Assembly (NCBI GenBank): GCA_913775275.1
Contig: CAJYIP010000059.1
Span: 1-49,042 of the forward strand
Length of the DNA: 49,042 nt
Direction of reading: 5' to 3'
Source: Patescibacteria group bacterium
GTDB taxonomy: Bacteria; Patescibacteriota; Saccharimonadia; Saccharimonadales; Saccharimonadaceae
Shown: positions 8,820 to 30,271 of the stretch, piece by piece
How the letters are laid out: each line of letters starts with the position of its first letter
Position numbering within the stretch: position 1 is the stretch's first letter
Position numbers and translations under genes: made by a program
The notes under the pieces: generated by a model
What the model was told of the DNA's origin: nothing
Seen by the model: only the letters and a program-made list of their open reading frames with translations
The model's database searches: none

Positions 8820-8912
8820 TGGCGGAGGAGCGGAGATTCGAACTCCGGCTCCAGGTCTCCCCAGACTAACGATTTAGCAAACCGTCCCCTTCAGCCACTT
8901 GGGTACTCCTCC
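8820..8912 (-). tRNA. tRNA-Ser (anticodon GCT)
   Basis: GGAGGAG...CTCCTCC acceptor, ACGGT-TTGCTAA-ATCGT anticodon arm, long variable arm, GAGTTCGAATCTC, encoded CCA. Confidence 0.93.
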
Positions 8913-8937
8913 GTATATTGTAGGTGCAACGGATATG

Positions 8938-8948
8938 ATTGTAGCACA
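8938..8948 (-). promoter_or_regulatory. Putative promoter -10 (TGTGCTACAAT) for tRNA-Ser(GCT)
   Basis: Identical 11-mer to that upstream of tRNA-Arg. Confidence 0.5.
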
Positions 8949-9029
8949 AAACAGGGGAGTGGACTAGCATCTGGAACAAATATTTGCTATAATATTGTTT
9001 TAATTATGTAATAAATTATGGAGAATGGT

Positions 9030-9413
9030 ATGAAGAAATCGTTCCTGCTTTCACCTCTCGTTATAGCTGTCTTTGTTGTCCTCATTGCCTCCGAATCGGC
9101 CAGTGCTCTCAGTATTTTTGACGGTATCAATTCGGCTCGTGGCGCTAATGTCCCGTCCCAACTCTTTGGCTCAGGAAGCATTTTTACAACTGTCGTAAAC
9201 ATTTTATTGTTCGTCGTTGGCGCCTTGAGCGTTATCATGCTAATCATCGGCGGATTGCGGTATGCAATCTCTGGAGGCAACTCATCTGCTGTGACAGCAG
9301 CAAAAAATACCATCTTGTATGCAATTGTCGGGCTAGTAGTCGCACTATTAGCTTATGCAGCTATAAACTTTGTTATCAATTCATTTAGCGGCGGAGTCGG
9401 TACAGACATCTAG
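9030..9413 (+). CDS. TrbC/VirB2-like pilin subunit
   Basis: Signal peptide plus two TM segments; GSIFTTVVNILLFVVGALSVIMLIIGGLRYAISGGNSSAVTAAKNTILYAIVGLVVALLAYAAINFVI. Start set at ATG 9030 because the ATG at 9018 overlaps the GGAG SD. Confidence 0.82.
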   Translation: MKKSFLLSPLVIAVFVVLIASESASALSIFDGINSARGANVPSQLFGSGSIFTTVVNILLFVVGALSVIMLIIGGLRYAISGGNSSAVTAAKNTILYAIVGLVVALLAYAAINFVINSFSGGVGTDI

Positions 9414-9423
9414 CCGATTAAAT

Positions 9424-9451
9424 AAAAGAGACCCTTGAACGGGTCTTTTTT
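9424..9451 (+). terminator. Intrinsic terminator
   Basis: AAAAGAGACCC-TTGAAC-GGGTCTTTTTT. Confidence 0.8.
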
Positions 9452-9454
9452 ATA

Positions 9455-9542
9455 TGGCGGAGAGGGCGAGATTCGAACTCGCGGTGAGTTGCCCCACGCT
9501 TGTTTTCAAGACAAGTACCTTAAACCGCTCGGTCACCTCTCC
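9455..9542 (-). tRNA. tRNA-Ser (anticodon TGA)
   Basis: GGAGAGG...CCTCTCC acceptor, CTTGT-CTTGAAA-ACAAG anticodon arm, GAGTTCGAATCTC, encoded CCA. Confidence 0.93.
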
Positions 9543-10270
9543 ATCGTGGTTTCGTGCGGAACTTTGCCCATTTTAACAGATATAGGTAGCTTCGTCGAGG
9601 GCTGTCGGGCAATTGCTGCCACTGAAACATGTTTTGCACCAGCTTGTCGTAATAATCGCGCCGCTTGCCTGACAGTTGAACCGGTTGTAATGATATCATC
9701 AATGATAAGGTAATGGATGTTCGGAGACACTGTTCCGCGCAATTCAAATAGTGACGATGCTGCATCGAAACGTTCTTTTCGACTCAGATGATGCTGAGTC
9801 GTATCAGATACTGCACGGAGTAAGCGATTAATGGGCTTATGTGTCGCTTTCGATAGCTCTATGGCTATCAACTCCATATGATCATACCCTCGGACGCGTT
9901 TGTGGGCGAGCGTCGTCGGAATAGGGACAATACAATCATAGCCAGAAGATAGTAAAAGAGGGGAAAGAAGCATTGCACACTCCTTCGCTGATGATCGTAT
10001 GTACCTGAACTTCAACCCTCCAATAAGGAGCTGCAATGCATCTTGACGCATACCAACGATAATAGTCTTGTCGAAAAAATGACGACAATCGCGACAAGTG
10101 TCGCCATAAAAATCGTCACCACACACCAAACATGTGTCACCAATAGGCTTAATGATGTACGATTTACAATTATCACATAATAGCGCCCCAATTCTACCGC
10201 AAGAGCAACAGGGGTGGGGTGCTATAGATGAAAGTAGCCTATCAATTATTGTGTTTTTTACGTATTGCAT
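9533..10270 (-). CDS. comF: ComF family phosphoribosyltransferase
   Basis: N-terminal CxxC zinc-finger-like motifs, VPIPTTLAHKRVRGYDHMELIA, LIIDDIITTGSTVRQAARLLRQAGA (PRPP loop). Confidence 0.92.
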   Translation of the reverse strand: MQYVKNTIIDRLLSSIAPHPCCSCGRIGALLCDNCKSYIIKPIGDTCLVCGDDFYGDTCRDCRHFFDKTIIVGMRQDALQLLIGGLKFRYIRSSAKECAMLLSPLLLSSGYDCIVPIPTTLAHKRVRGYDHMELIAIELSKATHKPINRLLRAVSDTTQHHLSRKERFDAASSLFELRGTVSPNIHYLIIDDIITTGSTVRQAARLLRQAGAKHVSVAAIARQPSTKLPISVKMGKVPHETTMER

Positions 10271-10280
10271 GGGATTTCAG

Positions 10281-10309
10281 TTGATTATACTGCTAGTGCT
10301 CGTTATAAT
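10281..10309 (+). promoter_or_regulatory. Sigma70-type promoter upstream of hsp20
   Basis: TTGATT, 17-bp spacer, TATAAT. Confidence 0.7.
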
Positions 10310-10356
10310 ACGAAAGACTATTTGTCAAATGAGCCAAGGAGAAAGTGGAGGATATC

Positions 10357-10818
10357 ATGGCCCGCAAACAAAACGAAGATTTACTAATCGAGGATGAATT
10401 GGCAGCTGCCTTTTTAGACGAGGACCTGTCCGTGTCAGAGCCAACCGCTCCAGCACCGACCGAAGACACATGGGACGACAGCGAGGAAGAGTTCCCAGGC
10501 CAATTGGCTGTTGATGTCTACGAAACGGAAGAAAAACTTGTCGTCAAAGCACGTACAGCTGGTGTTAACAAAGAAGATCTCGATGTCAGCATTAGCGACG
10601 GCATCTTGACTATTAGCGGAACACTTAGTAGCGGTGACGACACCGACGCCATCAACTGGCACATCCAGGAATGCTACTGGGGTGAATTCAGCCGTACGCT
10701 TGCATTGCCAGTTAGCGTGAAAGAAGACGAAGTAGAAGCAGTCCTAAAAGACGGTGTCCTGACAGTTTCTTTCTCGAAGGTAAAGCAAGAACAAGCAAAG
10801 AAAATCCAAATCCAGTAG
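10357..10818 (+). CDS. Hsp20/alpha-crystallin family small heat shock protein
   Basis: Alpha-crystallin domain: LAVDVYETEEKLVVKARTAGVNKEDLDVSISDGILTISG, EFSRTLALPVSV, AVLKDGVLTVSFSK. Start at ATG 10357 after GGAGG. Confidence 0.93.
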   Translation: MARKQNEDLLIEDELAAAFLDEDLSVSEPTAPAPTEDTWDDSEEEFPGQLAVDVYETEEKLVVKARTAGVNKEDLDVSISDGILTISGTLSSGDDTDAINWHIQECYWGEFSRTLALPVSVKEDEVEAVLKDGVLTVSFSKVKQEQAKKIQIQ

Positions 10819-10835
10819 TCTTACAACGACACTGT

Positions 10836-10867
10836 AAAATAAGCTCCTTTCTATGGAGCTTATTTTA
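10836..10867 (+). terminator. Intrinsic terminator of hsp20
   Basis: AAAATAAGCTCC-TTTCTAT-GGAGCTTATTTT. Confidence 0.8.
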
Positions 10868-10890
10868 TATACCAACTATTATCTTTTCAT

Positions 10891-10920
10891 AAAAAGAACC
10901 CCGCTCGCAATCGAGCGGGG
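10891..10920 (-). terminator. Intrinsic terminator of the pilin-like operon
   Basis: Minus strand CCCCGCTCG-ATTG-CGAGCGGGGTTCTTTTT. Confidence 0.85.
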
Positions 10921-10941
10921 TAGAGTTTCGATCTATTGAGA

Positions 10942-11364
10942 TTAGCTTCCAGATGGAACGATTGCACCGATAACCCAGTTGATGATAGCAAACGCGAGGA
11001 ATGCAACAACTAGACCGATGATTGCGTAAAGAATAGTGTTCTTTGCGGCAGTTACGTTTGAGCTGTCACCAGCAGAGATGGTGTAGCGGATACCACCAAT
11101 GATCAACATGATCACACTGATCGCACCAATAAGGAAAAGGAGGATATTTACAACGGTCGTAAAGATCGAACCATCACCAAATAGTTGGCCAGGAGTATTT
11201 GCACCACGGCTACAATTGATACCTGATTGTGCACCTTGGCTAATACCGGCTTCACAGTCTGCAGCGTAAGTTGATGGAGCAAGCGGGCTTACAACAGCAA
11301 CAAACGCAAGCACAACGCCAAAGGCGAGGGATGCGAATGCACTTTTCTTAATCATTTTTTTCAT
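10942..11364 (-). CDS. TrbC/VirB2-like pilin subunit
   Basis: GSIFTTVVNILLFLIGAISVIMLIIGGIRYTISAGDSSNVTAAKNTILYAIIGLVVAFLAFAIINWVI; close paralog of the 9030 gene. Confidence 0.82.
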   Translation of the reverse strand: MKKMIKKSAFASLAFGVVLAFVAVVSPLAPSTYAADCEAGISQGAQSGINCSRGANTPGQLFGDGSIFTTVVNILLFLIGAISVIMLIIGGIRYTISAGDSSNVTAAKNTILYAIIGLVVAFLAFAIINWVIGAIVPSGS

Positions 11365-11454
11365 GTTGAGTTCTTTCCTTTCTCGATCGAATCTCTTTGT
11401 TGTCTTGTTATGTTATAGCAGATATTGAACAGTTTGAAAAGCTTAAACGTCTTC

Positions 11455-11835
11455 TTAGAAGATGTCCAAGACCCAGTTAACGATTGCGTAGGCAAAGAAG
11501 GCGACGGCCAAACCAATAATCGCATAGAGAATAGTGTTCTTTGCAGCGCTTACCGCACTCGAATCACCACCAGAAACGGTGTATCGGATACCGGCAATGA
11601 TGATCATAATCACGGCAACTGCTCCGATAATGTATAGGAGTGTATTAACGACAGTACCAATAATTGAACTGACGTTTCCGTTACTTCCTTCCTGACACAG
11701 TGTTGAACCTGGATCAGAACTACAAGCGTCTTTCAGTGCTTGGGCGGATGCCGTAGACGACATGGTTACAACTGGAAATGCGATCACACCAACTACTACC
11801 GCAATCGCAACCATACTTTTAATAAGTTTCTTCAT
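11455..11835 (-). CDS. TrbC/VirB2-like pilin subunit
   Basis: Signal peptide; VNTLLYIIGAVAVIMIIIAGIRYTVSGGDSSAVSAAKNTILYAIIGLAVAFFAYAIVNWVL. Confidence 0.82.
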   Translation of the reverse strand: MKKLIKSMVAIAVVVGVIAFPVVTMSSTASAQALKDACSSDPGSTLCQEGSNGNVSSIIGTVVNTLLYIIGAVAVIMIIIAGIRYTVSGGDSSAVSAAKNTILYAIIGLAVAFFAYAIVNWVLDIF

Positions 11836-12528
11836 TTAAAACGCTCCTATGACAAAGTTTGTAACAGCAAATGCAGATAATACGATAACAATACCGATAA
11901 CTGCATAGAGGATCTGATTTTTTGCTTTTGTTAATTTGCTACTATCTCCCGAAGAGGTGACGTATGTAAAGCCTGCAATGATTATGACGATAACTGCGAC
12001 AATACCCATGATAAAGTACACGGTGTTCAAGATATTCTGAAGTACTTGTTCACCAGTAGCAACGGGAACACGGATACCGTTTACTTCCTGCGTCGGGAGA
12101 ACAACGCCAAATATCAGGTTAAGGATCGCGACGGCCGATAATGAAATTGCCAGTCCAATAACTGCGTTCAATATAGTACGCGTTGCTTTTTCTACTGTTT
12201 GAGCGCTACCGTTATTTGCTACGAACTGGAATCCGCCAAACAAGATAAAGAAGGCGGCAATATATCCGATAATGACCATGATCATTTCAACAATATTAAA
12301 AGCAATCTTAACGATAAACGCCTGCAGACCGCCTGCTTGATCAGGACTGATGATTTTACAATCATCACCTTCAGTTAAGCCTCGGTACCATGTCGGTATA
12401 AGAAGCACACGATCAGCACAGGCTGCGCCAGCCGTAGGGACGACGGGTGATACTGCCGCCATGACAGGTCCACCGACAATCACACCGAACGTCAATAGTG
12501 CTACTAGGTAGCGTAGTGTTTTCTTCAT
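11836..12528 (-). CDS. Double-domain TrbC/VirB2-like protein
   Basis: Two successive pilin-like modules: FNIVEMIMVIIGYIAAFFILFGGFQFVANNGSAQTVEKATRTILNAVIGLAISLSAVAILNLI and LNTVYFIMGIVAVIVIIIAGFTYVTSSGDSSKLTKAKNQILYAVIGIVIVLSAFAVTNFVI. Confidence 0.78.
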   Translation of the reverse strand: MKKTLRYLVALLTFGVIVGGPVMAAVSPVVPTAGAACADRVLLIPTWYRGLTEGDDCKIISPDQAGGLQAFIVKIAFNIVEMIMVIIGYIAAFFILFGGFQFVANNGSAQTVEKATRTILNAVIGLAISLSAVAILNLIFGVVLPTQEVNGIRVPVATGEQVLQNILNTVYFIMGIVAVIVIIIAGFTYVTSSGDSSKLTKAKNQILYAVIGIVIVLSAFAVTNFVIGAF

Positions 12529-12923
12529 TAGAATACCCCTCCTGGGATCAAGAAGTTTAATGCCACATACATAATAGCGAAAGCGACAATACCAATTGCG
12601 GTATTGGTAAATATTCCCAACGCTTTTTTTACTTGCTCAGGGCTACCACCGGCCGAAGTATACAGAACAGCCCCGTAAATGATACCTCCGAGGGCAGCAA
12701 GACCAGCTAAACCGGTTAAAATATTAATCGCCATAACCAATATTTTCCATAGACCAGTATCTTTTGCGTTTGACGGGTTATCACTCGCGTCACATTTTAG
12801 AATTGCAACATCAGCACCACCACATTTTTCAGCAGCAAATGAGGTGCCAACGAACGTCATTGATGCCGTACCGATTAATGCAAGTGAAGCTAAGAAGACG
12901 GAAAATTTTTGTTTTATACTCAT
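12528..12923 (-). CDS. Divergent TrbC/VirB2-like protein
   Basis: Signal peptide; INILTGLAGLAALGGIIYGAVLYTSAGGSPEQVKKALGIFTNTAIGIVAFAIMYVALNFLI. Start likely at MSIKQKF. Confidence 0.72.
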   Translation of the reverse strand: MSIKQKFSVFLASLALIGTASMTFVGTSFAAEKCGGADVAILKCDASDNPSNAKDTGLWKILVMAINILTGLAGLAALGGIIYGAVLYTSAGGSPEQVKKALGIFTNTAIGIVAFAIMYVALNFLIPGGVF

Positions 12924-13123
12924 AACTCTTAATACCATACTGTATTTTCAAGAGGTTCGCAATATACTTTCAACCCGCCTATATTATATGTATATATAAG
13001 CTCTTTACTTTTCAACACAAATGTGATATATTTAACATAACAAAAACGTTCGTCAAGAACTTTATTTGCCAAAAGCCCAAGCCGATAAATTATCGCCAAG
13101 CGCGAAAAGGAAAATCTATCACC

Positions 13124-14053
13124 ATGACGTTGGAAGCACCGCGACCAGTAGTTCCATCACCAGAGGACTTTAATCCGAAGGTTGAAAAAAAGAACAACAA
13201 ACTTCGTAACACTCTTATTATAGGTGGTACGAGTATTGCTCTTGCCGCTGGAGCTGTAGTTGGAATTAGTGCAGCTAATCAGGCTCCTAAAAATGAACCT
13301 GTAGCGGAAGCTCCAGCAGAACCTGTCGTCGAGAACCCTCAGGTGAATGAAGGTGACAGCGAAAACCAGCCTCAAGCAGAACAGCCAGTTGCACCGGAGG
13401 GTAATGTTGATGTTACCCAATTACCGGAAAATGTTCTCACATATAATATGTTTGAAAAATTACCGGAAAATGTACAAGAGAAGCTTCTTTCATTAGATAC
13501 TATGAGCCTCGCTGATTTTCGTCAACAGCCTTATGAAGACCAACTAATGTTTGGTGATTATATCCTGGACAATAACAGCGAAATTACAACCTATCGTTTG
13601 TCAAAAAACGGAATAGTCAACTTAGAAAGTAACGCAAATCCATCAACACCACAGGAATTGTACAGTACTCTCAATTATCAATTTGCAATGCTCTCATCAC
13701 TAAAAGAATATACGCCAGATGATGGTGTCGTCTTTGACAACGAAACAGCAAAAAAAGCCAGTGTTATCGTAGCTAACCCTGAAAACTTAGAATATCAAGG
13801 ATACATTGATAGCCGAATTGACGAATGGGGCGCAAGTACCGCAATGGAGCTAACGACAAGCAAAGTAGTGGCAGGTGAGATTGACGGTGATGGTGTCGCG
13901 AAAATGAACATCGAAAGCCCTAGCGGGAATAAGACTTACGACGTATCGAGTCCTAAAAAATTTGTTAACTACTTAGGACAGTCAGATCAAATCTACACAA
14001 CCGACTTGAGCGTCATATCTACAGACGTCAGATACACAGATTTATCTAAGTAA
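13124..14053 (+). CDS. Hypothetical single-TM surface protein (309 aa)
   Basis: Intact ORF; cytoplasmic N-terminus, one TM (TLIIGGTSIALAAGAVVGIS), acidic P/E/Q-rich linker, C-terminal ectodomain; terminator follows. Confidence 0.75.
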   Translation: MTLEAPRPVVPSPEDFNPKVEKKNNKLRNTLIIGGTSIALAAGAVVGISAANQAPKNEPVAEAPAEPVVENPQVNEGDSENQPQAEQPVAPEGNVDVTQLPENVLTYNMFEKLPENVQEKLLSLDTMSLADFRQQPYEDQLMFGDYILDNNSEITTYRLSKNGIVNLESNANPSTPQELYSTLNYQFAMLSSLKEYTPDDGVVFDNETAKKASVIVANPENLEYQGYIDSRIDEWGASTAMELTTSKVVAGEIDGDGVAKMNIESPSGNKTYDVSSPKKFVNYLGQSDQIYTTDLSVISTDVRYTDLSK

Positions 14054-14070
14054 CTCTGATTCTATCAGAG

Positions 14071-14103
14071 ACCCCGTTAAGCACTAGCTTTTCGGGGTTT
14101 TTT
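14071..14103 (+). terminator. Intrinsic terminator
   Basis: ACCCCG-loop-CGGGGTTTTTT. Confidence 0.75.
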
Positions 14104-14104
14104 G

Positions 14105-17056
14105 ATGTTAAATGATGGTGTGTTCAAGTTAAAACAAAAAACATTATTACTGAGCATATTAGGGATACTTTTCAGCGTATCTTTATCCTTTTTTGCCCTT
14201 AATAGTCCTACTTTTGCGTATATTACGAAGGCAGACTGTGAGGCAAAAGGTGGTTCTTGGATTCCAGGAAATCCGAATATGTCTACGTCGTGTAACTTCA
14301 AATACACGCCAGCTAATCAATTAAAATCTTTTTCTTATTACACTGCATTGTCATCGTGCTTCCGAAACGGAAATATTGAGGGTGCTTTCCTGAGCAACCA
14401 AATGAGTATACGTATATCTGCCGCTGATATAAGTAACCCTGATAAATGGATGGGGGGTAACACCATCAGCACTGGCTACTTAATTGATGGTCAAGACGGT
14501 GAGCAGCAATGTTCAACAATGATTAAACCTGCGCTTGATATGTGGGGATATACATCGAATACTTATAGTGAATTCCTAGATAGCATCGGATATAGCGGAT
14601 CTGCAATGACCTGTACGGGCAGCACAAGCTATGACAGGACGTGTAAACCAAGCACGGGCGGAGATGTATCAGGTGATACTTCGGGGAGCAAAATGCTTAA
14701 TGCATTTCGTACAACCATTAAAAACCGTGCTTATGCAGGCTCTGATCCAACGCTAAATAATAGACCAGATCTTGTTTTCTTGCGTGGCCTTTATCATATT
14801 GAGGCATCTGGTGCGTGTAGTGCTCAGCCATTTAAAAAAGTATCTGATTTAAATGCGGATGAAAAAAATACTTACAAAAATAATGACTTAGGCCCTGCAT
14901 CACAAAATAATGGCTGGAAAGACTACTTAATAGTTTCTCTAGTGAATAGTGATAATTGGAAACGAGAGGATTGGGTATACAAAATAAATCCCGACAGATT
15001 CACGAAGTTCATTAAACTGAACGAAAAGACTGAGGGCGGAAACGACGGAAGAACCTGTATCGTCTTGGCTAGAGAAAGTGGACCTAATGCAGATGCGGTT
15101 GCTAAAGATGCCGCACAGATGATAGCGAATGGCCAAAATCCTGCCGATAAGTACAATGGCATCGTCACTACACCAGGTGGATCTTCTAACATTGGCGGTG
15201 ATGGCTCAACGAATCCAGGTGACCCTGGCACAACTACTACTTGTAATATCGAAGGTCTTGGATGGATATTATGTCCCGTCATGACATTCATGGCCGGAGT
15301 AACCGATGCAGCATATGGTTTCGTTTCAAGCTTACTTGATGTCAAACCTTTACTTATTAACGGTGAGGAACAGGGGATATATGGTGCTTGGTCGATCATG
15401 CGTAACATTGCCAATATCGCATTTGTTATCGCTTTCTTAATTATCATATTCTCTCAATTAACAAGTGTTGGCGTTTCAAACTATGGAATAAAAAAACTGC
15501 TACCAAGGCTTGTTGTTGCAGCAATACTAGCGAATATATCCTACTGGATATGCGCGGTCGCAGTTGACCTATCAAACATCGCCGGATCGTCAATGAAATC
15601 GTTATTTGACAGCCTTCAGGCAAACTTAGGCATTAAGGTGGGTGAATCGCCCTTTGATAGTGGTACTGGCTGGCTTGGCTTTGTAGGTGGAATTCTTGCA
15701 GCGGGAGGAGTCGCAGCTACACTTATGTACTTGCATATGTCCTTACTCATTCCATCCCTGATTTCTGCAGTAGTTGCAATTGTCACGGTATTTGTCGTAC
15801 TAACATTACGACAAGCACTCATTATTTTGTTAATCGTTATTGCACCTCTAGCCTTCGTCGCCTATTTACTACCGAATACCGAAGAATTATTTAATAAGTG
15901 GCGAAAACTGCTTATGACACTACTACTTATGTACCCAATTATTGCAGGTATATTCGGCGCATCTGCATTAGCATCTCAGGTTGTGATGGGGTCGAGTGAT
16001 GATTTCGCAATTGATGTAATGGGGGCGTTGATTTCCATTCTTCCTTTAGCTATCACTCCGCTAGTTATGAAGTTTGCCGGAGGAGTCCTGAATCGCTTTG
16101 GTGGTATCGTCAATAACGTAGACAAGGGTCCTATTGACTACCTAAAGAAACGCGGTGAATCATATAGAACCGCCACTCAAAACAATAGAGCAGCTGAAGC
16201 ATTAAAAGGGAAGCGATTCATCGGAGCTGGATATTTTAGACGGAAATCGCGAAGAGAATTTAGAGACACTGCAGCAAAAGACGCGCTATCGGCAGGCAAC
16301 GCTGCATTCTCAATAACTGACCAAACTGCTGGCGGATACGCACAAACTAGCTCCAGTAGTCAATTAGCAACGAGTGCCATAAACACTGCAAGAAATAATA
16401 CTATTACTAATGGACTTGCGGTAAACGGTAATCAAAATGTATTGAATGCTATGGGCAGCGAAGCTGCTGCAAACGAAGAAATCAAAAAGGCTTTGGCTGC
16501 TCAAACATCAAAAGCAGTTTCTGCAGCCATAGAAGACGTGAAGTTGAGTGCGAATATCTCACCTGGTGATCTAGGTGCGATGTCTCGACAGTTTGGAGAT
16601 GCCGTCAAAAATGGTGACTCAATTACAGCCCGAGCAATGCAAGATATGATGCTTAATTCTGGCGGGAAAGGTGTTCAAACGTGGCGTGAATCTGTTGCCG
16701 GTATCGAAGCTGGAGGCTCTGCAATAGGTGGACAGGTGGGCGAGGATCTACGTAAACATATCCTCGATAAACATCCAGGTATAAAAGGAACGGACGCCTC
16801 TATTATGTCGTGGGCTACAGTCACCGACAAGGACACTGGTCAACGAAGAAAGTTAGCAGATATTCAAGCCGACCAAAGTACATGGGGACTTACCAACGAA
16901 GAGTTCGCTGGCCAAAAAGCATTTGCTCAACATGATGCATTGAATGCAGGTGCAATATCAAAAGAACGTGCTAGCGAGATCATGGGTAATGATGAGTTAA
17001 TGAGCAAAATTGACGAAGGTGTTAAAATCAAGCTTCGAAACCTTAGTGGTTCCTAG
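14105..17056 (+). CDS. VirB6/TrbL-like polytopic T4SS membrane protein with large ectodomain
   Basis: Signal peptide, Cys-containing ectodomain (about 330 aa), then several TM segments (IANIAFVIAFLIIIFSQL, LLPRLVVAAILANISYWICAVAV, ALIILLIVIAPLAFVAYLLP) and an Ala-rich cytoplasmic tail. Confidence 0.72.
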   Translation: MLNDGVFKLKQKTLLLSILGILFSVSLSFFALNSPTFAYITKADCEAKGGSWIPGNPNMSTSCNFKYTPANQLKSFSYYTALSSCFRNGNIEGAFLSNQMSIRISAADISNPDKWMGGNTISTGYLIDGQDGEQQCSTMIKPALDMWGYTSNTYSEFLDSIGYSGSAMTCTGSTSYDRTCKPSTGGDVSGDTSGSKMLNAFRTTIKNRAYAGSDPTLNNRPDLVFLRGLYHIEASGACSAQPFKKVSDLNADEKNTYKNNDLGPASQNNGWKDYLIVSLVNSDNWKREDWVYKINPDRFTKFIKLNEKTEGGNDGRTCIVLARESGPNADAVAKDAAQMIANGQNPADKYNGIVTTPGGSSNIGGDGSTNPGDPGTTTTCNIEGLGWILCPVMTFMAGVTDAAYGFVSSLLDVKPLLINGEEQGIYGAWSIMRNIANIAFVIAFLIIIFSQLTSVGVSNYGIKKLLPRLVVAAILANISYWICAVAVDLSNIAGSSMKSLFDSLQANLGIKVGESPFDSGTGWLGFVGGILAAGGVAATLMYLHMSLLIPSLISAVVAIVTVFVVLTLRQALIILLIVIAPLAFVAYLLPNTEELFNKWRKLLMTLLLMYPIIAGIFGASALASQVVMGSSDDFAIDVMGALISILPLAITPLVMKFAGGVLNRFGGIVNNVDKGPIDYLKKRGESYRTATQNNRAAEALKGKRFIGAGYFRRKSRREFRDTAAKDALSAGNAAFSITDQTAGGYAQTSSSSQLATSAINTARNNTITNGLAVNGNQNVLNAMGSEAAANEEIKKALAAQTSKAVSAAIEDVKLSANISPGDLGAMSRQFGDAVKNGDSITARAMQDMMLNSGGKGVQTWRESVAGIEAGGSAIGGQVGEDLRKHILDKHPGIKGTDASIMSWATVTDKDTGQRRKLADIQADQSTWGLTNEEFAGQKAFAQHDALNAGAISKERASEIMGNDELMSKIDEGVKIKLRNLSGS

Positions 17057-17061
17057 AATGC

Positions 17062-17067
17062 TATACT
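17062..17067 (+). promoter_or_regulatory. Putative extended -10 (TGCTATACT), near-leaderless start for prgI-like gene
   Basis: TGCTATACT-AAACCCAT-ATG, no SD. Confidence 0.4.
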
Positions 17068-17075
17068 AAACCCAT

Positions 17076-18035
17076 ATGGCAGTCTACAAAGTTCCTCAAG
17101 ATGTTGAAGCAGATGACAAGCTCATCGGGCCGTTTAGCTTTCGTCAATTCATCTACTTGATTATCGTCGTGATGGCTGGGGCGTTGGCGTGGGCACTAGG
17201 AACTATATTCATTGGTTTAGCAATCATCCCTTTACCAGTCGTGTTATTGTTCGGCGCGCTAGCATTACCACTTCGTAAAGACCAGCCGATGGAAATCTAC
17301 TTGGCGGCGATGGTGTCATTTTATCTCAAGCCACGAAAGCGTATGTGGGATCCAGAAGGTGTCGAATCTCGCATTGAGATTACCGAACCGAAAGTAGTAG
17401 AGGTGCGCCGGACAAAAGACATCACGCAAGCTGATGCCGAGCAACGCTTTAGTTATCTTGCAAACCTGGTCGATACGGGTGGGTGGGCGATTCGTGGAAC
17501 GATTGGTGCGCCAAACAGTCCGATGAATACCGATGTATATTTTGAGGCACAGGGAACTGAAGATGTGCTTGATACGAACAATGCTGTTTCTCAGTCGTTC
17601 GATACAATGATGGAAAAGCAAACGGAGAAAATTAAAGAAGAAGCTCGCGCTAGAATGATGCATCCTCAGCCTGAACCGCAGCCACAAGTTCAGCAGACAA
17701 CGCCACAGCCAGCTCAGTCAGTAGCGCCGCCATATACTCAACAAACTCCTGACCCAGTCATCGAGTACAACCCGTATCCGAACTTCCAACAGTCAGTTAT
17801 TCAACCACTTAATGACCCGAGTCACGCGTACCAAGCAAGCCAACAACCAGTTGCCGATGAACCGGGCCCGGCGCCAATATCAACTACCACTAGCGACAAG
17901 CAGGTATCACCTGATATAATGAACCTTGCTAACAATAGCGATTTATCAATCGAAACTATTGCTCACGAGGCGCATCGTATTCATGAAAAAGAAGAACACG
18001 ATTTGACCGAAGAAGTGGTGATTTCGCTCCGATAA
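17076..18035 (+). CDS. PrgI family T4SS protein with P/Q-rich C-terminal tail
   Basis: YKVPQDVEADDKLIGPFSFRQFIYLIIVVMAGALAWALG...LPLRKDQPMEIYLAAMVSFYLKPRKRMWDPE is a typical PrgI sequence. Confidence 0.88.
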   Translation: MAVYKVPQDVEADDKLIGPFSFRQFIYLIIVVMAGALAWALGTIFIGLAIIPLPVVLLFGALALPLRKDQPMEIYLAAMVSFYLKPRKRMWDPEGVESRIEITEPKVVEVRRTKDITQADAEQRFSYLANLVDTGGWAIRGTIGAPNSPMNTDVYFEAQGTEDVLDTNNAVSQSFDTMMEKQTEKIKEEARARMMHPQPEPQPQVQQTTPQPAQSVAPPYTQQTPDPVIEYNPYPNFQQSVIQPLNDPSHAYQASQQPVADEPGPAPISTTTSDKQVSPDIMNLANNSDLSIETIAHEAHRIHEKEEHDLTEEVVISLR

Positions 18036-18068
18036 ACGAAATCTAAGAGGGAGTGGGGCGCATCCAGT

Positions 18069-18953
18069 ATGCCACCGAATAATCAATATATTCCACCGAC
18101 GCAGCCAGGCGCACAGCCAGGTCTTCCTCAACAGCCACAGCAATCAATGCCTGCCATGCAACAGCAGATGCCTGCGCAGCCACAGATGGCTATACAGCCT
18201 CAGGCTGTTGGCTCCGGACAACCATCGACGCTTCCTGCACCAAAAAACCCTAACTCAACACAGAGTACACTTCAGCTCTCAGAGGTGCGCGATAACATGG
18301 TGATCATGATGGACGGAACATTCCGTGCTGTTATTGCCTGTAAATCGATCAACTTTGATCTGATGAGTGATCGAGAGCGAGAAGGGGTTGAATATAGCTA
18401 CCAAAACTTCCTTAACTCCTTGAATTTTCCTATTCAAATCCTTATCCGTTCAGAACGGGTTGATATTGGACCGTACATCTCTCAACTAGTGGAAAAGCGC
18501 CGCTCGCAAGATAATATGCTTCTCGGTGTCCTTATGGATGACTATATTAACTTTATTGATGCACTCGCTCAAGAGGCAAACATTATGGAGAAGGCGTTTT
18601 ATATTGTTGTTCCTTATTTCCCTCTCGGCGATGCAGCTAACTTTGTCGAACAAGGGAAAGGTTTCTTTGGAAAACTATTCGGCAAACAGAAGACGACAAG
18701 CCGTATCGATTCTGCCACCTACCAGAAGGCAAAAGATGAGATCCGTCGACGAGTTGATGTGATTCAAGCCGGTTTGTTCCAGATTGGCATTCAGAGCACT
18801 CAATTAGACACCAAATCACTCGGTGAGCTGTACTACAATTTTTACAATCCCGACACGGCTGTTCGCCAGCCACTTGCTAATTTTGATGATGTAACAAGTC
18901 TCTATACTATGAAGGCGACCCCAGGGCAGCCGCAACCGGGAGGACCACAATAA
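18069..18953 (+). CDS. TraC/VirB4 N-terminal-domain-like T4SS protein
   Basis: DNMVIMMDGTFRAVIACKSINFDLMSDREREGVEYSYQNFLNSLNFPIQILIRSERVDIGPYI; precedes VirB4 and overlaps it by 1 nt. Confidence 0.8.
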   Translation: MPPNNQYIPPTQPGAQPGLPQQPQQSMPAMQQQMPAQPQMAIQPQAVGSGQPSTLPAPKNPNSTQSTLQLSEVRDNMVIMMDGTFRAVIACKSINFDLMSDREREGVEYSYQNFLNSLNFPIQILIRSERVDIGPYISQLVEKRRSQDNMLLGVLMDDYINFIDALAQEANIMEKAFYIVVPYFPLGDAANFVEQGKGFFGKLFGKQKTTSRIDSATYQKAKDEIRRRVDVIQAGLFQIGIQSTQLDTKSLGELYYNFYNPDTAVRQPLANFDDVTSLYTMKATPGQPQPGGPQ

Positions 18954-20800
18954 TGGCTCGTAAACCATCTGCTGTCGATATTGCTGCCGAGCAACGAGCA
19001 CGCGAACAAACGGAAGTCGAAGCTGCCTTCCAAAAGGGTATTTCAACACTTCGTGACCTGATCGCCCCAAGTAGTATTGAAATTCATTCATCATATTTTC
19101 GATTAGGCACAAAGTATGGTCGGACGCTCTATGTATATGGCTATCCACGCCAGATCTATACCGGGTGGCTTAGTAACTTGATTAATGTTGATGAAGTCCT
19201 CGACGTGAGTATGTATATTTACCCGGTCGAGAGCCAAGTCGTATTGAATAATTTGCGTAAAAAAGTGACACAGCTTGAGGCAAGTGCTTCGATCAACAAT
19301 GAAAAAGGGAAGACACGAGACCCAGCTATTGAAGCGGCTATTAACGACGCCGAAGAGCTCCGCGACCAGCTACAACTTGGCGCTGAACGATTCTTCCGAT
19401 ACGGTCTTTACGTGACACTTTATGCCGATAGCCTAGATGAATTGAACTTCGTTCAGAACAAGATCGAAACGATGTTCGGTCAGCAAATGGTATTCAGTAA
19501 GGTTGCCTCTTCTCAACAAGAACAAGGCTTGAATAGTACTATTCCACAGTTGAGTGACCAGTTACAAATTCGTCGAAATATGAATACCGGGGCTATTAGT
19601 ACAAGCTTCCCATTTACTAGTGCCGATTTAACCGACAATACAGGTATCCTTTACGGTATCAATATGCACAATAACGGATTGGTCATCTTTGATCGTTTCC
19701 GCTTAGAAAACGCTAACCTCGTTGTCTTTGCAAAGTCTGGTGCCGGTAAGTCATTTACCGTAAAACTTGAAGCACTCCGTAGTATGATGATGGGCAGTGA
19801 AATTATCATTATCGACCCAGAGAACGAGTACCAAAAGCTAGCCGATGCAGTAGGGGGGAGTTACATTCGTCTCAGCCTCAACTCAAGCACCCGCATCAAC
19901 CCATTCGATTTGCCGCGTGTTATCGATAATGATGAAGCCGACGATGCATTACGAGCAAATCTCGTCACTCTTCACGGTTTATTCCGTTTAATGCTTGGCG
20001 GAACACAAGTGGCCGCAAACGGCGTTCCATTGTCAGCGCTTAGTCCATCCGAAGAAGCCGACCTTGATCAAGCATTGATCGATACCTATGCGCGTGTCGG
20101 CATCACGAGCGATCCGTTAACACATAATTCACCGCCACCAACGATCAGCGACCTATACGATACGTTGCTCCATATGGGCGGAAATGGCCCCCAGCTAGCT
20201 CAACGTCTCCGTAAATATACAACCGGAACCTTTGCGGGTATCTTTAGTCAGCAATCAAATATCGATATCAACAACCCGATGGTCGTCTTTAACATTCGTG
20301 ATCTCGAAGATGAGTTGCGACCAGTCGCGATGTATATCGTCCTGAGCCACATCTGGAATATCACTCGAACCATCCAGAAAAAGCGTATGCTGATTGTTGA
20401 TGAAGCGTGGCAATTAATGAAGTATGACGACTCGGCGAACTTCCTCTTTAGCCTCGCGAAACGAGCACGTAAATATCACCTAGGATTAACAACAATTACC
20501 CAGGACGTCGAAGACTTTATGGGAAGCAAAATGGGCCGTGCTATTGTTGCCAACAGCTCAATGCAACTTTTGCTGAAACAATCATCCAGTGCCGTCGACG
20601 TCCTTTCTGATGTCTTTAAGCTGACCGAAGAAGAGAAGAAGCGCCTTGCAAACTTCCCAATCGGACAAGGCTTATTCTTTGCTGGTCAAAGTCATGTTCA
20701 CATCCAGATCCAAGCTAGCCCGACCGAACAACAACTGATTACAACGAATCCTCAAGCAACCCCCAACAATCCAACCCCTAACGTCTCGCCTCTGCTATAA
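18953..20800 (+). CDS. virB4: VirB4-family T4SS ATPase
   Basis: Walker A FAKSGAGKSFTVKLE, IIIDPENEYQKLADAVGGSYIRLSLNSSTRINPFDLP, Walker B RMLIVDEAWQLMKY, TTITQDVEDFM. Confidence 0.92.
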   Translation: MARKPSAVDIAAEQRAREQTEVEAAFQKGISTLRDLIAPSSIEIHSSYFRLGTKYGRTLYVYGYPRQIYTGWLSNLINVDEVLDVSMYIYPVESQVVLNNLRKKVTQLEASASINNEKGKTRDPAIEAAINDAEELRDQLQLGAERFFRYGLYVTLYADSLDELNFVQNKIETMFGQQMVFSKVASSQQEQGLNSTIPQLSDQLQIRRNMNTGAISTSFPFTSADLTDNTGILYGINMHNNGLVIFDRFRLENANLVVFAKSGAGKSFTVKLEALRSMMMGSEIIIIDPENEYQKLADAVGGSYIRLSLNSSTRINPFDLPRVIDNDEADDALRANLVTLHGLFRLMLGGTQVAANGVPLSALSPSEEADLDQALIDTYARVGITSDPLTHNSPPPTISDLYDTLLHMGGNGPQLAQRLRKYTTGTFAGIFSQQSNIDINNPMVVFNIRDLEDELRPVAMYIVLSHIWNITRTIQKKRMLIVDEAWQLMKYDDSANFLFSLAKRARKYHLGLTTITQDVEDFMGSKMGRAIVANSSMQLLLKQSSSAVDVLSDVFKLTEEEKKRLANFPIGQGLFFAGQSHVHIQIQASPTEQQLITTNPQATPNNPTPNVSPLL

Positions 20801-20801
20801 T
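20796..20801 (+). promoter_or_regulatory. Putative extended -10 (TGCTATAAT) overlapping virB4 stop
   Basis: TGCTATAAT then 11 nt to ATG 20813. Confidence 0.4.
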
Positions 20802-20812
20802 AGGTACCAGAT

Positions 20813-23800
20813 ATGGCGTCTCCAAACTCAACATTGCCGCCGAGAACTCCAGAGGAACAGGATAGTCGGTACAACCCTTTTGAACAGGCTCAAAAAGAGC
20901 AGATGGGCGCAGGGTACGTTTCGAGTGGCGCCGACCAAGCCGAAGCCTTTGCTAATGATCCGAATAATAGCACTGAGGCAGCTCGTAAAGCCGAAGAAAA
21001 TGTTCCGCCAGCTCAAGATGATCGACAAGGGCTCTATCGTCCATCTCGTAAAGGAAAAATTAGCTTTCGCGGCCGTGCGAAAGACTTCATCAAAAGACGT
21101 GGTGCCATTGTCGGTATCCTAGGTATTTTAGGTATTGGTGGTGGGGTAGGGGTAGGATTTTTTGGGCCAGTGACAATGTTACAAAACTTAGCTGATAATC
21201 TAACTATTTCTAATGATTCGGTATCACCATCTATGCAGAAACGGTTCATGGGGATTTTCGGAAAAGCAACTGCTGTCACACCCGACGGAATATGTATTAA
21301 TTCTTCTCGGGCGATCAAATGTAAAATGGGGCGTATTTCAAATAAAGCATTAGGTCAACTTAATAGCCGAGCCGGTATTGTACCCTTTTTCGACGACGGT
21401 GTCACTAACACAGATAGTAAAACTGGCTATCCATCGAAAAATCCAAAAGGATACACCGTTCCAACTAGCGACGGTAAGACAAGGAATATTCTCGCTAACG
21501 ATCTAATTGGTTACTTGAGTCAGAAAGAAAATAGCAAGATAGCCGCTAAAGTCCTCGGTCAAGGTGGTGCATTTAATGTTCGCTTCATGGCTATGTCAGG
21601 CGGTCATTTCAACAAGATGCTCGGTAAGTACGGTCTACAAAAAAACGGTGGATTAGCCGATGGAAAGAATAAGCGAGGAACAGTCGCTGAGAGACTCTTG
21701 GCTACTCGCGAGAAGCTCCAAGCAACGCAGCCAGATAGTGCTAAAATTGCTGAAGCAAGCAGCAAAACTATAGTTGCTGATAAAGTGAATAAACATATGA
21801 ATAGGGCAGCAAAAGGTGGTATTGGTTACCAGGTTGCCTATGGAACATGTATCGGCGTAAAAATACCTGCCTATGCCGCAATGGGTGCAGCGGCCGTTCA
21901 AATGACCCAAGTAATGCCAGCCGCTTGGAATACCGTCCTATCCCCAGCAGCGAAACAACGTGCTTCAGGTGTGGAAACTGCAAATGCTATGACTCCAGAG
22001 GATCAAGATGCGATTGGCTCAATCTTAACCGATAGAACAGCCCGTGATGGTGATGGAAAAATGACATCAGCCCTCGATTCTCCAGTTCTTTTGTCGGCAA
22101 TGGGTGTAGATAAAGGCAAGCCTGCGGTCGCAACTGATTACACACCTGGATTTAGTGTGTTGAAGAATCCAGTCGTTACTGCCGCCCAAGGTACTGAGAA
22201 GGCAACCGAACCAGCCTGTAACGTCATTATGAGTCCTGCAGCTTTATACAGTGCCATGGCAGTTGACGCAGCTATTACCATTGGAACTTCAGCAACTGTC
22301 ATTGGTGGGGTGATTAAGATCGGCGCTAGTTTAATCGTGAGTGAAATAGCGACAAAAACAGCTACCGCAGTTGCAGAGAATATTGCTGGTGGTATCCTTG
22401 CCGACTTAGCAAAGAGCGATAAGATCACCACCGCCAAAGGCCAAGCTTTTGGTGACGTTCTCGGGGTTTCAGCACTGTCGTTCTTTGCTTCAAATGGTAT
22501 GTCACGCGGGCTTCCAGCACTAAAAAAATCTCAGTTAGCCGGCTTCGCACAACTCAAACAAGAAAACGAAGCATTCGAACGACAGATGGCGATCGCATCG
22601 CTTAGTCCGTTCGATACATCTAGTCGCTACACTTTTCTTGGAAGCATCGTTCATAATTTCCAATTAGCGGCTTTAGCAAATGGAAGCTACACGACAATGT
22701 CAGCTTTCGGATCAATACCAAACATGATTGCCAGCGCACTAACTCCTCAAACGTTTGCTGCGACAAATCAAACACAAGAGTCGTGCGGCTACGCGGCCGA
22801 CTTTAATCTTGAAGCTGAAAATCCAGCAGACACGCCAGCAATTAACGCTGCTGGGTTACCTTGCACGGGACTAACGAGTGAACAGGCATCAATGTCCTCG
22901 GATGAAGCAATATCATTGCTTGAAAATGAAGGGTGGCTTGATACATCAAAAGATGTACCAGAAAATGCTTCTTTGGATACGCTACGTAGTTCCGGTATTA
23001 TCAAAAGTGACACACTAATGACTGACTTTATCGACACATGCACCGATGCGTCTAACGGAGAATATCTTATTAATTCTGGAAGTTGTACTGTAAATGGTAC
23101 ATCATCGGCGAGCGTAACAGTCGCCTGTGAAGGCGAAGGCTGTAAAAAAGAAGATGGTACCGACGAAGGTACTCCGGCAGCCGGCCTGAAGAACGCTCGA
23201 TCACTCAACGCTATCAGCGTCTTCCTTCTCGACTTCCAGATTCACCAATCGATCAATGGTGAAGACGTTATAGAATCTGAGGCTAGTCCTGGTACGAGTA
23301 CCCCAGCAACAGGCCGACCAGATGGTGCGATAGACAAGGATCGTGGCTGGACCTTAGCAAAAGGCGTCGATTACTCTAAATACCCTTGCGACCCTCGAAC
23401 AATTGATAGAGGTGTTCACACCAATGCAACTGAAGGATTTACAATTCGACGTTGTCAAATCACTCACAATACCGGCAATAACGACACGAACGGAACTAAC
23501 CAAGTTGCGTCTGTCGTATCAACCAATATGATGAATATGCTTGAAGCTGCCCGCGCAGCAGGGATCGAACTTGGAATCAGTGATGGTCTTCGTTTGAGCT
23601 TTGATAGAGGATATTACTCTGAACACATTACTGGTTTAGCAGCCGACTTAGGCGCACCACGCGCTGGTGCAACAATCTGTTTCGGTGGTGATAGTCAGAA
23701 CGGATACGGCAACCAAGCGAACGCGGAAGCTGCATGTCTGCGTAAAGGTGGTATACAAAACGAAGCGTATCAATGGCTCAAAGCAAACGCTGCGAATTAC

Positions 23801-23854
23801 GGCTATTATAATTACGTAAAAGAACCATGGCACTGGTCAACGAGTGGATCATAA
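20813..23854 (+). CDS. Large membrane protein with C-terminal VanY-like D,D-carboxypeptidase (M15) domain
   Basis: Internal hydrophobic segments (GAIVGILGILGIGGGVGVGFF; MAVDAAITIGTSATVIGGVIKIGASLIVSEIA); C-terminal zinc motifs SEHITGLAADLG and EPWHW. Confidence 0.78.
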   Translation: MASPNSTLPPRTPEEQDSRYNPFEQAQKEQMGAGYVSSGADQAEAFANDPNNSTEAARKAEENVPPAQDDRQGLYRPSRKGKISFRGRAKDFIKRRGAIVGILGILGIGGGVGVGFFGPVTMLQNLADNLTISNDSVSPSMQKRFMGIFGKATAVTPDGICINSSRAIKCKMGRISNKALGQLNSRAGIVPFFDDGVTNTDSKTGYPSKNPKGYTVPTSDGKTRNILANDLIGYLSQKENSKIAAKVLGQGGAFNVRFMAMSGGHFNKMLGKYGLQKNGGLADGKNKRGTVAERLLATREKLQATQPDSAKIAEASSKTIVADKVNKHMNRAAKGGIGYQVAYGTCIGVKIPAYAAMGAAAVQMTQVMPAAWNTVLSPAAKQRASGVETANAMTPEDQDAIGSILTDRTARDGDGKMTSALDSPVLLSAMGVDKGKPAVATDYTPGFSVLKNPVVTAAQGTEKATEPACNVIMSPAALYSAMAVDAAITIGTSATVIGGVIKIGASLIVSEIATKTATAVAENIAGGILADLAKSDKITTAKGQAFGDVLGVSALSFFASNGMSRGLPALKKSQLAGFAQLKQENEAFERQMAIASLSPFDTSSRYTFLGSIVHNFQLAALANGSYTTMSAFGSIPNMIASALTPQTFAATNQTQESCGYAADFNLEAENPADTPAINAAGLPCTGLTSEQASMSSDEAISLLENEGWLDTSKDVPENASLDTLRSSGIIKSDTLMTDFIDTCTDASNGEYLINSGSCTVNGTSSASVTVACEGEGCKKEDGTDEGTPAAGLKNARSLNAISVFLLDFQIHQSINGEDVIESEASPGTSTPATGRPDGAIDKDRGWTLAKGVDYSKYPCDPRTIDRGVHTNATEGFTIRRCQITHNTGNNDTNGTNQVASVVSTNMMNMLEAARAAGIELGISDGLRLSFDRGYYSEHITGLAADLGAPRAGATICFGGDSQNGYGNQANAEAACLRKGGIQNEAYQWLKANAANYGYYNYVKEPWHWSTSGS

Positions 23855-23855
23855 T

Positions 23856-25145
23856 ATGAAAAAATCTATTATAGTCTCGACTATTTTTGCGCTTCTGATA
23901 TCTTTTGTTCCTATAGTGTTCAGTCAATCTGCTCATGCAGCTGAGAAATGCGACACTATCTTCTACAGCTCAAACGATATTTTGTATTACAATCCATGTG
24001 AAAAATGCACGACAAGCGGATCAACCATTCTGGGTGGCTCAAATGAAGAGAAGACATTCAAATGGTTCCGCGCTAAAGGACTCAATGCGGCGGCTGCGGC
24101 GGGTATTTTAGGAAACATTGATCATGAATCAAGCTTCAATCCGTTTCGCATGCAAACAACCTACAGTGAGCGGGGGATCGACGCAGTTCACCCGATTGAA
24201 TCGGTCAGTGGATACAACCTCGCTTTCGGACTCGTTCAATGGGATGGTGGTCGCCGGCAGGAAGTCTTGAAGCAAATGTCAAATAAGTTTCCTGATTATA
24301 AAGAATTGATTAATTCTTACGGCAAATCAGCTGACGGCTATAAACAAGCACCGCCAGAGAAGAACGATGCTGTCTTAGATTTTTCACTTACCTATGTCGA
24401 TCTCGAGCTATCAAAAGGCTATACTCGCGTATACGATGAAATTAAAGGTGTACCCGACACTGAAGAAGGTGTTGTCACAGCAACTGAAACATGGAACCGT
24501 AAATATGAGGTCTCAGCTGACTATACACAACAACGCCATGAAAAAGCTAAAGGGTACTATCGGCAATTTAAAGATGCAGTTATTCCAAATGTTGACACAA
24601 GTAGTGGTGGAAATGGATGTGGTGCACCAACTCCAGCCGGGGAGGTTGTTCATTATCTTCAAACAGATCCAAAATGGACAAATGTAGGGTATGCCGGCAG
24701 TAATATCGGTGAAGTGGGTTGTGGGCCAACTTCGATGGCTATTATCCTCGCCTCGCTGGTTGATAAAAATATCACCCCTCCGGATGTTGCTGCTGTTGCC
24801 GGGCAACAGTCTGGTGGTACATCGAGTCACGGCGATTTGATTAAAGGGGTTAATCAAAAATGGGGTCTTTCTATCAGTACTACTCCTTTGACGATGCAGG
24901 AAGCGATTGAATTCGTCAAAGCAGGGAAGGGTTATGTCTGGATGGGTGGAACGGCCCCGGAAAAACAGAAAGGTCCATTTACAACCGGAGGTCACATGGT
25001 AGCAATGGTGGGTGTAAACTCTGATGGAAGTGTTATTATTGCCGATCCATACGGAGATGGTGTTGGGCATCAAAAAATAGCTAACTACCCTGCAGAACAA
25101 ATTGCCGCCGAATCAGGTGGAAGATATGGAGTACCCAAGAAATGA
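23856..25145 (+). CDS. Secreted bifunctional lysozyme-like + C39-like cysteine peptidase protein
   Basis: Signal peptide; phage tail lysozyme-like NEEKTFKWFRAKGLNAAAAAGILGNIDHESSFNPF...FGLVQWDGGRR; C39-like VGCGPTSMAIILASL ... GGHMVAMVGVNSDGSVIIADPYGDG. Start corrected to ATG 23856. Confidence 0.82.
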   Translation: MKKSIIVSTIFALLISFVPIVFSQSAHAAEKCDTIFYSSNDILYYNPCEKCTTSGSTILGGSNEEKTFKWFRAKGLNAAAAAGILGNIDHESSFNPFRMQTTYSERGIDAVHPIESVSGYNLAFGLVQWDGGRRQEVLKQMSNKFPDYKELINSYGKSADGYKQAPPEKNDAVLDFSLTYVDLELSKGYTRVYDEIKGVPDTEEGVVTATETWNRKYEVSADYTQQRHEKAKGYYRQFKDAVIPNVDTSSGGNGCGAPTPAGEVVHYLQTDPKWTNVGYAGSNIGEVGCGPTSMAIILASLVDKNITPPDVAAVAGQQSGGTSSHGDLIKGVNQKWGLSISTTPLTMQEAIEFVKAGKGYVWMGGTAPEKQKGPFTTGGHMVAMVGVNSDGSVIIADPYGDGVGHQKIANYPAEQIAAESGGRYGVPKK

Positions 25146-25825
25146 ACCGGCATGGGAAAAAAATAGTCATACTTCTTGTCATCGCTTTTCTATTGATCGT
25201 GGCAACTGTCGTATGGATCGCAGTTCAGCGAACTTCAGGTGATTCAATAGTACGCGATAAAGATACTGGTGAAACATTTGATCCGAAAGCGCCACGGGAA
25301 AATACTGGTGGAAACGGGTCCCTCGTCAGTACCGTTCAACTATTCGGTATTGAACAAGCAATTAAAAGTCTCTCTGGAAACGAATCAATCGTTGGCTATT
25401 CCGATGATATTAAGGCGAGTATCTGGCAGTTTAGTCATGATCGCTTGAATAATGAGTTTCAAACAATAACATTAAGACCTCAGAACCTAGAACAAAAAGA
25501 TGCAACTATCACAGGTGAACTTCGACTTGGGCAGTCCGACACTATCATTCCGATTGTCATCAAGCCAACCTCAACCGAACGCCATGCAATTATATCTATT
25601 AATAACGATAATAATGCCTATGGCGGCACATTCGTGTACATGGGCGGCATAAACAATCCAGACAATCTATTATTTACCATCGAACAAGTCAGTCGATCAT
25701 CAGACAAATTGCGTGTTATTTCTTACGGAGGGTACAATGAAGCAGCACTCGAATACCTGGAAAGTATCGGGTATCATATTCCTGATTTGGATATAAGCTT
25801 TGCAGCAGAAAGTGGAATGTTATGA
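25142..25825 (+). CDS. Hypothetical single-TM exported protein (227 aa)
   Basis: ATGA-type overlap with upstream gene; N-terminal TM then globular ectodomain. Confidence 0.75.
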   Translation: MNRHGKKIVILLVIAFLLIVATVVWIAVQRTSGDSIVRDKDTGETFDPKAPRENTGGNGSLVSTVQLFGIEQAIKSLSGNESIVGYSDDIKASIWQFSHDRLNNEFQTITLRPQNLEQKDATITGELRLGQSDTIIPIVIKPTSTERHAIISINNDNNAYGGTFVYMGGINNPDNLLFTIEQVSRSSDKLRVISYGGYNEAALEYLESIGYHIPDLDISFAAESGML

Positions 25826-26427
25826 GAAAAGGTATCATTATCGGCGGAATAATTTTTATTGCTGCTATCGTAGGTGTTTTTATTGCTGCCGATCAATTAA
25901 ACCGTCGAATCGTTAATTTCACGCTTCAAGATAGTGGCTACACTGTTGAAATCACGCAAAAAAACAATACTGTTGGTAAATTAACAAACTCCTCGTCACT
26001 TCGTCTTAAAGATGGTGACTACTCCTACCACATTACCACCGAAGGATTCGATACGACCAAAACCGATTTCACCGTAAAGGGTTCGGATGTTTCTATAACC
26101 ATCATTCCTCAGCTTTCCGCTGAACAACTACGAACAGTTCTGGATACTGAACGGACTGCTATCCTAGACGTATTGCGGACAGCATACCCAGGAACTCAAG
26201 TCACTTTTACTTCATTACAGTTATATAAGAAGGGTGAATGGGCCGCAGGAACATTACAAAAGATTATTACTCCTCGACAAATCCCCGATACCTATCGATT
26301 TGTCTTAGAAAAAAAGAATAATACCTGGAGTATCGTTATACCTGCACGTATCGCAATAAAAAAGACTGATTTTCCAAATGTCCCCGCGGATATTATATAT
26401 TCGCTCTACCGTTCGGCGTCAAATTAA
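25822..26427 (+). CDS. Hypothetical single-TM exported protein (201 aa)
   Basis: ATGA overlap with upstream gene; N-terminal TM; PEGA-like segment then alpha/beta C-terminal domain. Confidence 0.75.
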   Translation: MRKGIIIGGIIFIAAIVGVFIAADQLNRRIVNFTLQDSGYTVEITQKNNTVGKLTNSSSLRLKDGDYSYHITTEGFDTTKTDFTVKGSDVSITIIPQLSAEQLRTVLDTERTAILDVLRTAYPGTQVTFTSLQLYKKGEWAAGTLQKIITPRQIPDTYRFVLEKKNNTWSIVIPARIAIKKTDFPNVPADIIYSLYRSASN

Positions 26428-27451: not shown

Positions 27452-27452
27452 A

Positions 27453-28553: not shown

Positions 28554-28600
28554 TATGTATTCCTTTCTTTATTTTCTTTCGTTTTACTAATAATAGGGTA

Positions 28601-28803: not shown

Positions 28804-28829
28804 TTTTTACCCAGGTAATAGACAGGGGA

Positions 28830-30209: not shown

Positions 30210-30271
30210 ACCCGCTTTTTTCTCCCTTATACCTGATAAACTCTTTCCTTTACTATACGTGAGTAGGGTAG

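Follow-up and report, generated by a model that had tools for sequence, protein, structure and literature searches.

The type IV secretion system (T4SS) locus in a 49,042-nucleotide stretch of DNA from a Patescibacteria group bacterium encodes two cell wall hydrolases that are modular: among close relatives, changes of their ends and replacement of their genes greatly outpace change elsewhere in the machine. The stretch, referred to here as the window, makes up contig C59 of a genome of 758 kb in 61 contigs, and its closest relatives are Saccharibacteria. The T4SS region spans positions 9018 to 26427. From position 9018 it contains a lone pilin gene, comF and hsp20, four minus-strand pilin genes, and then a plus-strand run encoding a 309-amino-acid (aa) protein with a single transmembrane (TM) segment, a 984-aa VirB6-like protein, PrgI, TrsD, VirB4, a membrane scaffold, a lysozyme joined to a C39 domain, and two further single-TM proteins.

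Modular wall hydrolases encoded after VirB4

Directly after VirB4, nearly all loci encode a member of a single protein family (85 members), with conserved cysteines. Its VanY/M15 end in the window (20813 to 23854) keeps the catalytic motifs SEHITGLAADL and EPWHW, and a PDB search with this protein gave matches at the C-terminal VanY end only and none across the rest. Among 47 of the scaffold proteins, Pfam identifies the C-terminal end as VanY in 14, M23 in 12, and CHAP in 1; others carry further M15-like HxH ends or Exo_endo_phos domains. In the PDB, structures of both VanY and M23 are matched by the same positions of the scaffold profile. The Exo_endo_phos scaffolds (L034:14333-16510, L046:14170-16686, L032:10238-11620, and L040:14307-15305; L numbers denote compared loci) place enzymes resembling nucleases or phosphodiesterases on this holder, and those of L034 and L032 also have an M23 end. 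A second scaffold copy lies downstream of the first at L070, L079, and L080. A choice between paralogues within the window's own genome was considered and rejected, since the genome has a single scaffold copy and its second match is a peptidase end alone.

The second protein (23844 to 25145) shows the same arrangement of a retained core and a variable end. The lysozyme domain is kept in 51 of 59 homologues, and the ends among these 59 comprise C39 (12 proteins), CHAP (11), M23 (4), Amidase_3 (4), NlpC (4), and M15 (3), with GH43, GDSL, GDPD, or Exo_endo_phos domains in a few. In the window, the catalytic residues are retained in both halves (HES on the lysozyme side; GCGPTS, H384, and D401 on the C39 side). 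In PHROGs, the lysozyme is the sole locus protein with phage relatives, which are tail tape-measure proteins and endolysins. One lysozyme protein (L064:16562-18793) combines an N-terminal GH43 glycosidase with a CHAP end.

End classes were assigned with hidden Markov models (HMMs) built for this analysis and mapped on a VirB4 tree; these labels are approximate, and the tree was built quickly and leaves some forks open. On this tree, the class changes about 28 times for the scaffold (6 states, 69 rows) and about 24 times for the lysozyme protein (7 states, 55 rows), compared with means of 38.5 and 29.7 and minima of 32 and 25, respectively, for shuffled labels. The counts fall below the shuffled range, which indicates some inheritance but much turnover. 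The window (VanY scaffold end, C39 lysozyme-protein end) and its VirB4 sister L007 (M23 and C39) differ in their scaffold ends at 95% VirB4 identity.

The gene histories also differ. Across loci, identity to the window tracks that of dnaN for virB4, trsD, prgI, and pilE (rho, 0.63 to 0.78), whereas the corresponding values are 0.08 for the scaffold, 0.19 for the lysozyme core, and -0.10 for VirB6. The scaffold of the window is nearer to those of L013, L011, L065, and L082 than to that of L007. In approximately unbiased (AU) tests, the scaffold tree rejects a grouping of the window with L007 (log likelihood lower by 620; P = 6e-56) and the VirB4 tree rejects the scaffold's clade (lower by 120; P = 9e-7); the P values are optimistic because the tested groups were picked after inspection of the trees, but the likelihood gaps are still large. 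This conflict probably reflects either exchange or sorting within a locus that itself stays in place, and old paralogues may contribute to it.

A chromosomal T4SS beside dnaA

The data support identification of the locus as the Gram-positive-type (MPF-FATA-like) T4SS that Saccharibacteria carry on the chromosome without a relaxase. Of 195 Saccharimonadia genomes, 183 contain VirB4, as do all 10 in the genus sample. Among the 80 named loci, most of those long enough to include these genes have the order virB6-prgI-trsD-virB4-scaffold-lysozyme-small TM proteins-recF/dnaN/dnaA. The near-universal VirB4, the position kept beside dnaA, and the outcome of the relaxase searches together indicate a fixed chromosomal machine rather than a conjugative element, as the initial annotation of this DNA had proposed; searches of the genome for three relaxase families, the VirB4 survey, and the synteny comparison revealed neither a complete integrative conjugative element (ICE) nor variable presence among close relatives.

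A decayed or complete ICE with its relaxase elsewhere in the genome would be in keeping with the descent of the parts from Gram-positive conjugation machines. It is opposed by the fixed place and near-universal presence of the locus and by the scarcity of relaxases: of the three families searched in the window's genome, PF03432 and PF03389 were absent and PF13814 appeared only below its cutoff, and a single genome among the 195 of the class has a PF03432 match above the cutoff. Within the locus itself (9018 to 26427), no relaxase, VirB11, integrase, or coupling-protein gene stood out, and the sole direct repeats are the pilin paralogues, in agreement with the initial reading that no such gene or att-like repeat was readable.

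The lack of a coupling protein is confined to the locus. The genome encodes two VirD4/TraG-type ATPases, at C57:5169-8090 and C21:4757-7420 (loci L090 and L091), which rule out the absence of any coupling protein, their cooperation with the T4SS being putative. This pair could be taken to favor an ICE. However, both ATPases have one N-terminal TM segment and housekeeping surroundings, with the C57 gene adjoining gyrB/gyrA and the C21 gene near topA. Kin of the C57 protein occur in 117 of 117 genomes, among them six in which VirB4 was not found (G002, G003, G065, G074, G101, and G115), which indicates that this family is not strictly tied to the T4SS. On the VirB4 presence, the position beside dnaA, and the relaxase searches, we rejected the ICE explanation and regard it as highly improbable. 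In a phylum-wide survey of patescibacterial T4SSs (Quinonero-Coronel et al. 2025; PMC12102498), VirD4 homologues likewise lie outside the T4SS locus, and the gene is nonessential in Southlakia epibionticum.

T4SSs of this kind have been published (PMC10633639; PMC12102498), so the initial interpretation, although correct, is not novel. In S. epibionticum ML1, SEML1_0006-0019 was described as a T4SS that is essential, includes pilins, and lacks both a coupling protein and a relaxase (Wang et al. 2023; PMC10633639). Like the window, that cluster has Gram-positive-type parts and a pilin series, and according to PMC12102498, the genes for a peptidase and a lysozyme that directly follow virB4 there are essential. 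S. epibionticum is a different species, the only one in which essentiality for epibiotic growth has been shown (PMC10633639); its genome, and with it its hydrolase ends, lies outside the set of compared loci. The patescibacterial clade in the survey shares VirB4, TrsD, PrgI/VirB3, VirB6, and VirB2 arrays with the window, lies near dnaA in several classes, is mostly relaxase free, and has VirD4 homologues elsewhere. In the parts of PMC12102498 that we read, we found no description of a shared scaffold, exchange of the enzyme end, or gene-tree conflict. The modularity of the hydrolases is what this analysis adds; domain swapping was not found in the open literature that we checked, and an earlier mention elsewhere is possible.

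Possible role of the variable hydrolases

A 2024 review called the role of the T4SS in Saccharibacteria completely unknown (PMC11665869). We infer a target wall, a cargo, and a direction of transport as follows. An energized channel through the membrane would consist of VirB4, PrgI, TrsD, and the VirB6-like protein; the pilins would build a pilus on the surface, and the three single-TM proteins would serve as connectors across the wall. Both hydrolases would open peptidoglycan at the contact between epibiont and host, mainly in the host wall, and proteins could be delivered or nutrients taken up through the opening, with the epibiont's own DNA not transferred. A vertically inherited core with exchanged hydrolase genes and swapped ends is what would be expected if the enzymes must fit different host envelopes. 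We give an even chance to this overall reading of a relaxase-free T4SS with hydrolases acting mainly on the host wall and exchanged at a fixed locus. Somewhat more tentatively, the scaffold and the lysozyme may be holders for ends that are swapped to fit the host envelope and that help to set host range, a role similar to that of phage tail lysins. If it is the hydrolases that vary and face the host, laboratory pairs would allow tests of how an obligate epibiont comes to choose its host, and the envelope attacked by a given epibiont might be predicted from its sequence.

Several points weigh against action on the host wall or against exchange. VirB1-type hydrolases of ordinary T4SSs cut the cell's own wall. 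About one-fourth of the scaffolds have no recognized hydrolase end, and with no known host for this genome, its hydrolase class has no host wall to be matched to. The scaffolds share little identity (median, 27%), such that the lost correlation with dnaN may partly reflect saturation, although the AU tests are very strong. Finally, the presence of more than one scaffold copy at three loci means that the sorting of paralogues can mimic exchange.

The main rival explanation is that the hydrolases are ordinary VirB1-type remodelers that open the epibiont's own peptidoglycan for T4SS assembly and that their diversity reflects epibiont wall diversity or drift. PrgK of pCF10, TraG of pIP501, and CwlT of Tn916 are wall-cutting VirB1-type proteins that often have two catalytic domains and are encoded with a T4SS. 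The hydrolases of the window are likewise encoded with a T4SS and keep their catalytic residues, and a lysozyme and a peptidase in a single protein is the usual design. In contrast to PrgK, TraG, and CwlT, the lysozyme core here is of the phage tail type, the second enzyme is on a separate membrane scaffold of ~770 aa, and the ends come from many families. The layout of the run also favors this explanation, since both hydrolase genes are co-encoded with VirB4 in a close-packed series: from trsD through the last gene, neighboring open reading frames (ORFs) overlap by 1 to 11 bases (at 18953, 23844-23854, 25142-25145, and 25822-25825), except for 12 bases after virB4. Enzymes such as VirB1, PrgK, and CwlT are present in Gram-positive T4SSs (PMC12102498). 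However, swaps of ends between sister loci whose VirB4 proteins are 95% identical, the conflicting gene trees, and the added GH43, esterase, GDPD, and nuclease-like domains seem to exceed the needs of wall maintenance, and we consider this explanation less likely than action on the host wall.

Alternatively, the machine might import host DNA or nucleotides in a manner similar to that of archaeal Ced/Ted or Helicobacter pylori ComB, an idea raised in PMC11665869. The comF gene among the pilin genes points in this direction, as do weak matches of CedB/CedD models to VirB4 and the VirD4-like ATPases and the finding that comEC is dispensable in S. epibionticum (PMC12857230). However, comF lies apart from the plus-strand run, which contains no DNA-processing gene, and the Ced matches are far under the cutoff and would be expected of any VirB4/VirD4 kin. 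Import of DNA or nucleotides appears improbable.

Other components of the locus

All of the genes listed in the initial annotation are present (Table 1), as identified with Pfam and NCBIfam profiles, with the VirB6-like protein recognized by size, position, and TM cluster only. In the flank, recF-dnaN-dnaA lie on the opposite strand. Two details of the locus needed correction: the VirB2-like genes are five pilin genes on two strands, interrupted by comF and hsp20, and the two single-TM proteins listed are joined by a third at 13124 to 14053.

Table 1. Features of the T4SS locus and its flank in the window
Feature	Position	Strand	Evidence
VirB2-type pilin, alone between two tRNA-Ser genes	9018-9413	+	PF18895, 34 bits
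VirB2-type pilin	10942-11364	-	PF18895, 41 bits
VirB2-type pilin	11455-11835	-	PF18895, 49 bits; TrbC/VirB2 PF04956, 34 bits
Double pilin, two T4SS_pilin domains	11836-12528	-	PF18895 in two stretches, 65 bits
VirB2-type pilin	12528-12938	-	PF18895, 31 bits
Single-TM exported protein, 309 aa	13124-14053	+	Family of 36, same position in other Saccharibacteria
VirB6-like large polytopic membrane protein (candidate), 984 aa	14102-17056	+	TM cluster at residues 439-655; before prgI; homologue in same place in relatives
PrgI (VirB3-like)	17076-18035	+	PF12666, E 3e-12
TrsD (VirB4 N-terminal-like)	18069-18953	+	NCBIfam TrsD, E 3e-5, below its curated cutoff; same position in relatives
VirB4 ATPase	18953-20800	+	PF19044, E 7e-28; NCBIfam NF045971; PDB 4ag5, E 1e-51
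Membrane scaffold (conserved part, ~770 aa) ending in an exchangeable wall hydrolase, here VanY/M15; 1013 aa in total	20813-23854	+	85 homologues; VanY match; AlphaFold predicted template modeling score (pTM) 0.71
Secreted phage-tail-type lysozyme, C-terminal domain C39-like	23844-25145	+	PF18013 (Phage_lysozyme2), E 8e-20; PF13529, E 2e-12
Single-TM exported protein	25142-25825	+	ORF and TM prediction; no family match
Single-TM protein, PEGA-like and cystatin/NTF2-like domains	25822-26427	+	AlphaFold mean predicted local distance difference test score (pLDDT) 92
recF, dnaN, dnaA (flank, conserved neighbors, outside the machine)	26393-30281	-	ORFs and synteny

VirB4 is predicted to be of the MPF-FATA type by its match to NF045971 (CD1110-type VirB4; 380 bits, against a cutoff of 325), and 4ag5/4ag6 is its sole sequence relative in the PDB. 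No Pfam or NCBIfam model matches the protein at 14102 to 17056, which is a candidate VirB6-like protein from its size, position, and TM-segment cluster.

The protein encoded at 25822 to 26427 is a weak candidate for a VirB8/TcpC-like component. TcpC (pCW3) and OrfG (ICESt3), which are VirB8-like, have a single TM segment followed by NTF2-like folds, and its model is similar in outline. Its Foldseek matches to TcpC (3ub1; E 0.04) and OrfG (8s7l; E 0.09) are not significant, and a sequence-profile search for VirB8 kin gave no match. The family of the protein at 13124 to 14053, which has no Pfam, NCBIfam, or solid PDB match, is a second VirB8 candidate by position. A profile search gave no solid VirB8 identity for it; its VirB10 match (E 0.006) covers only the N-terminal TM segment and a proline-rich part. 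A scan of positions 12900 to 14150 for promoters and terminators gave nothing above chance.

The five T4SS_pilin (PF18895) genes encode six domains, all above the Pfam cutoff. The tRNA-Ser genes that flank the lone pilin gene are on the minus strand (8820 to 9542). A pilin gene is also found upstream of comF in L009, L012, L015, L026, and L065, and the neighborhood of the comF-like phosphoribosyltransferase gene (9533 to 10270) is repeated in many relatives. Two VirB6-like genes, compared with one in the window, are present in L030, L034, L037, L039, L040, L046, L052, L057, L058, L068, and L082, where they mostly flank the gene for a single-TM protein of ~300 aa on both sides.

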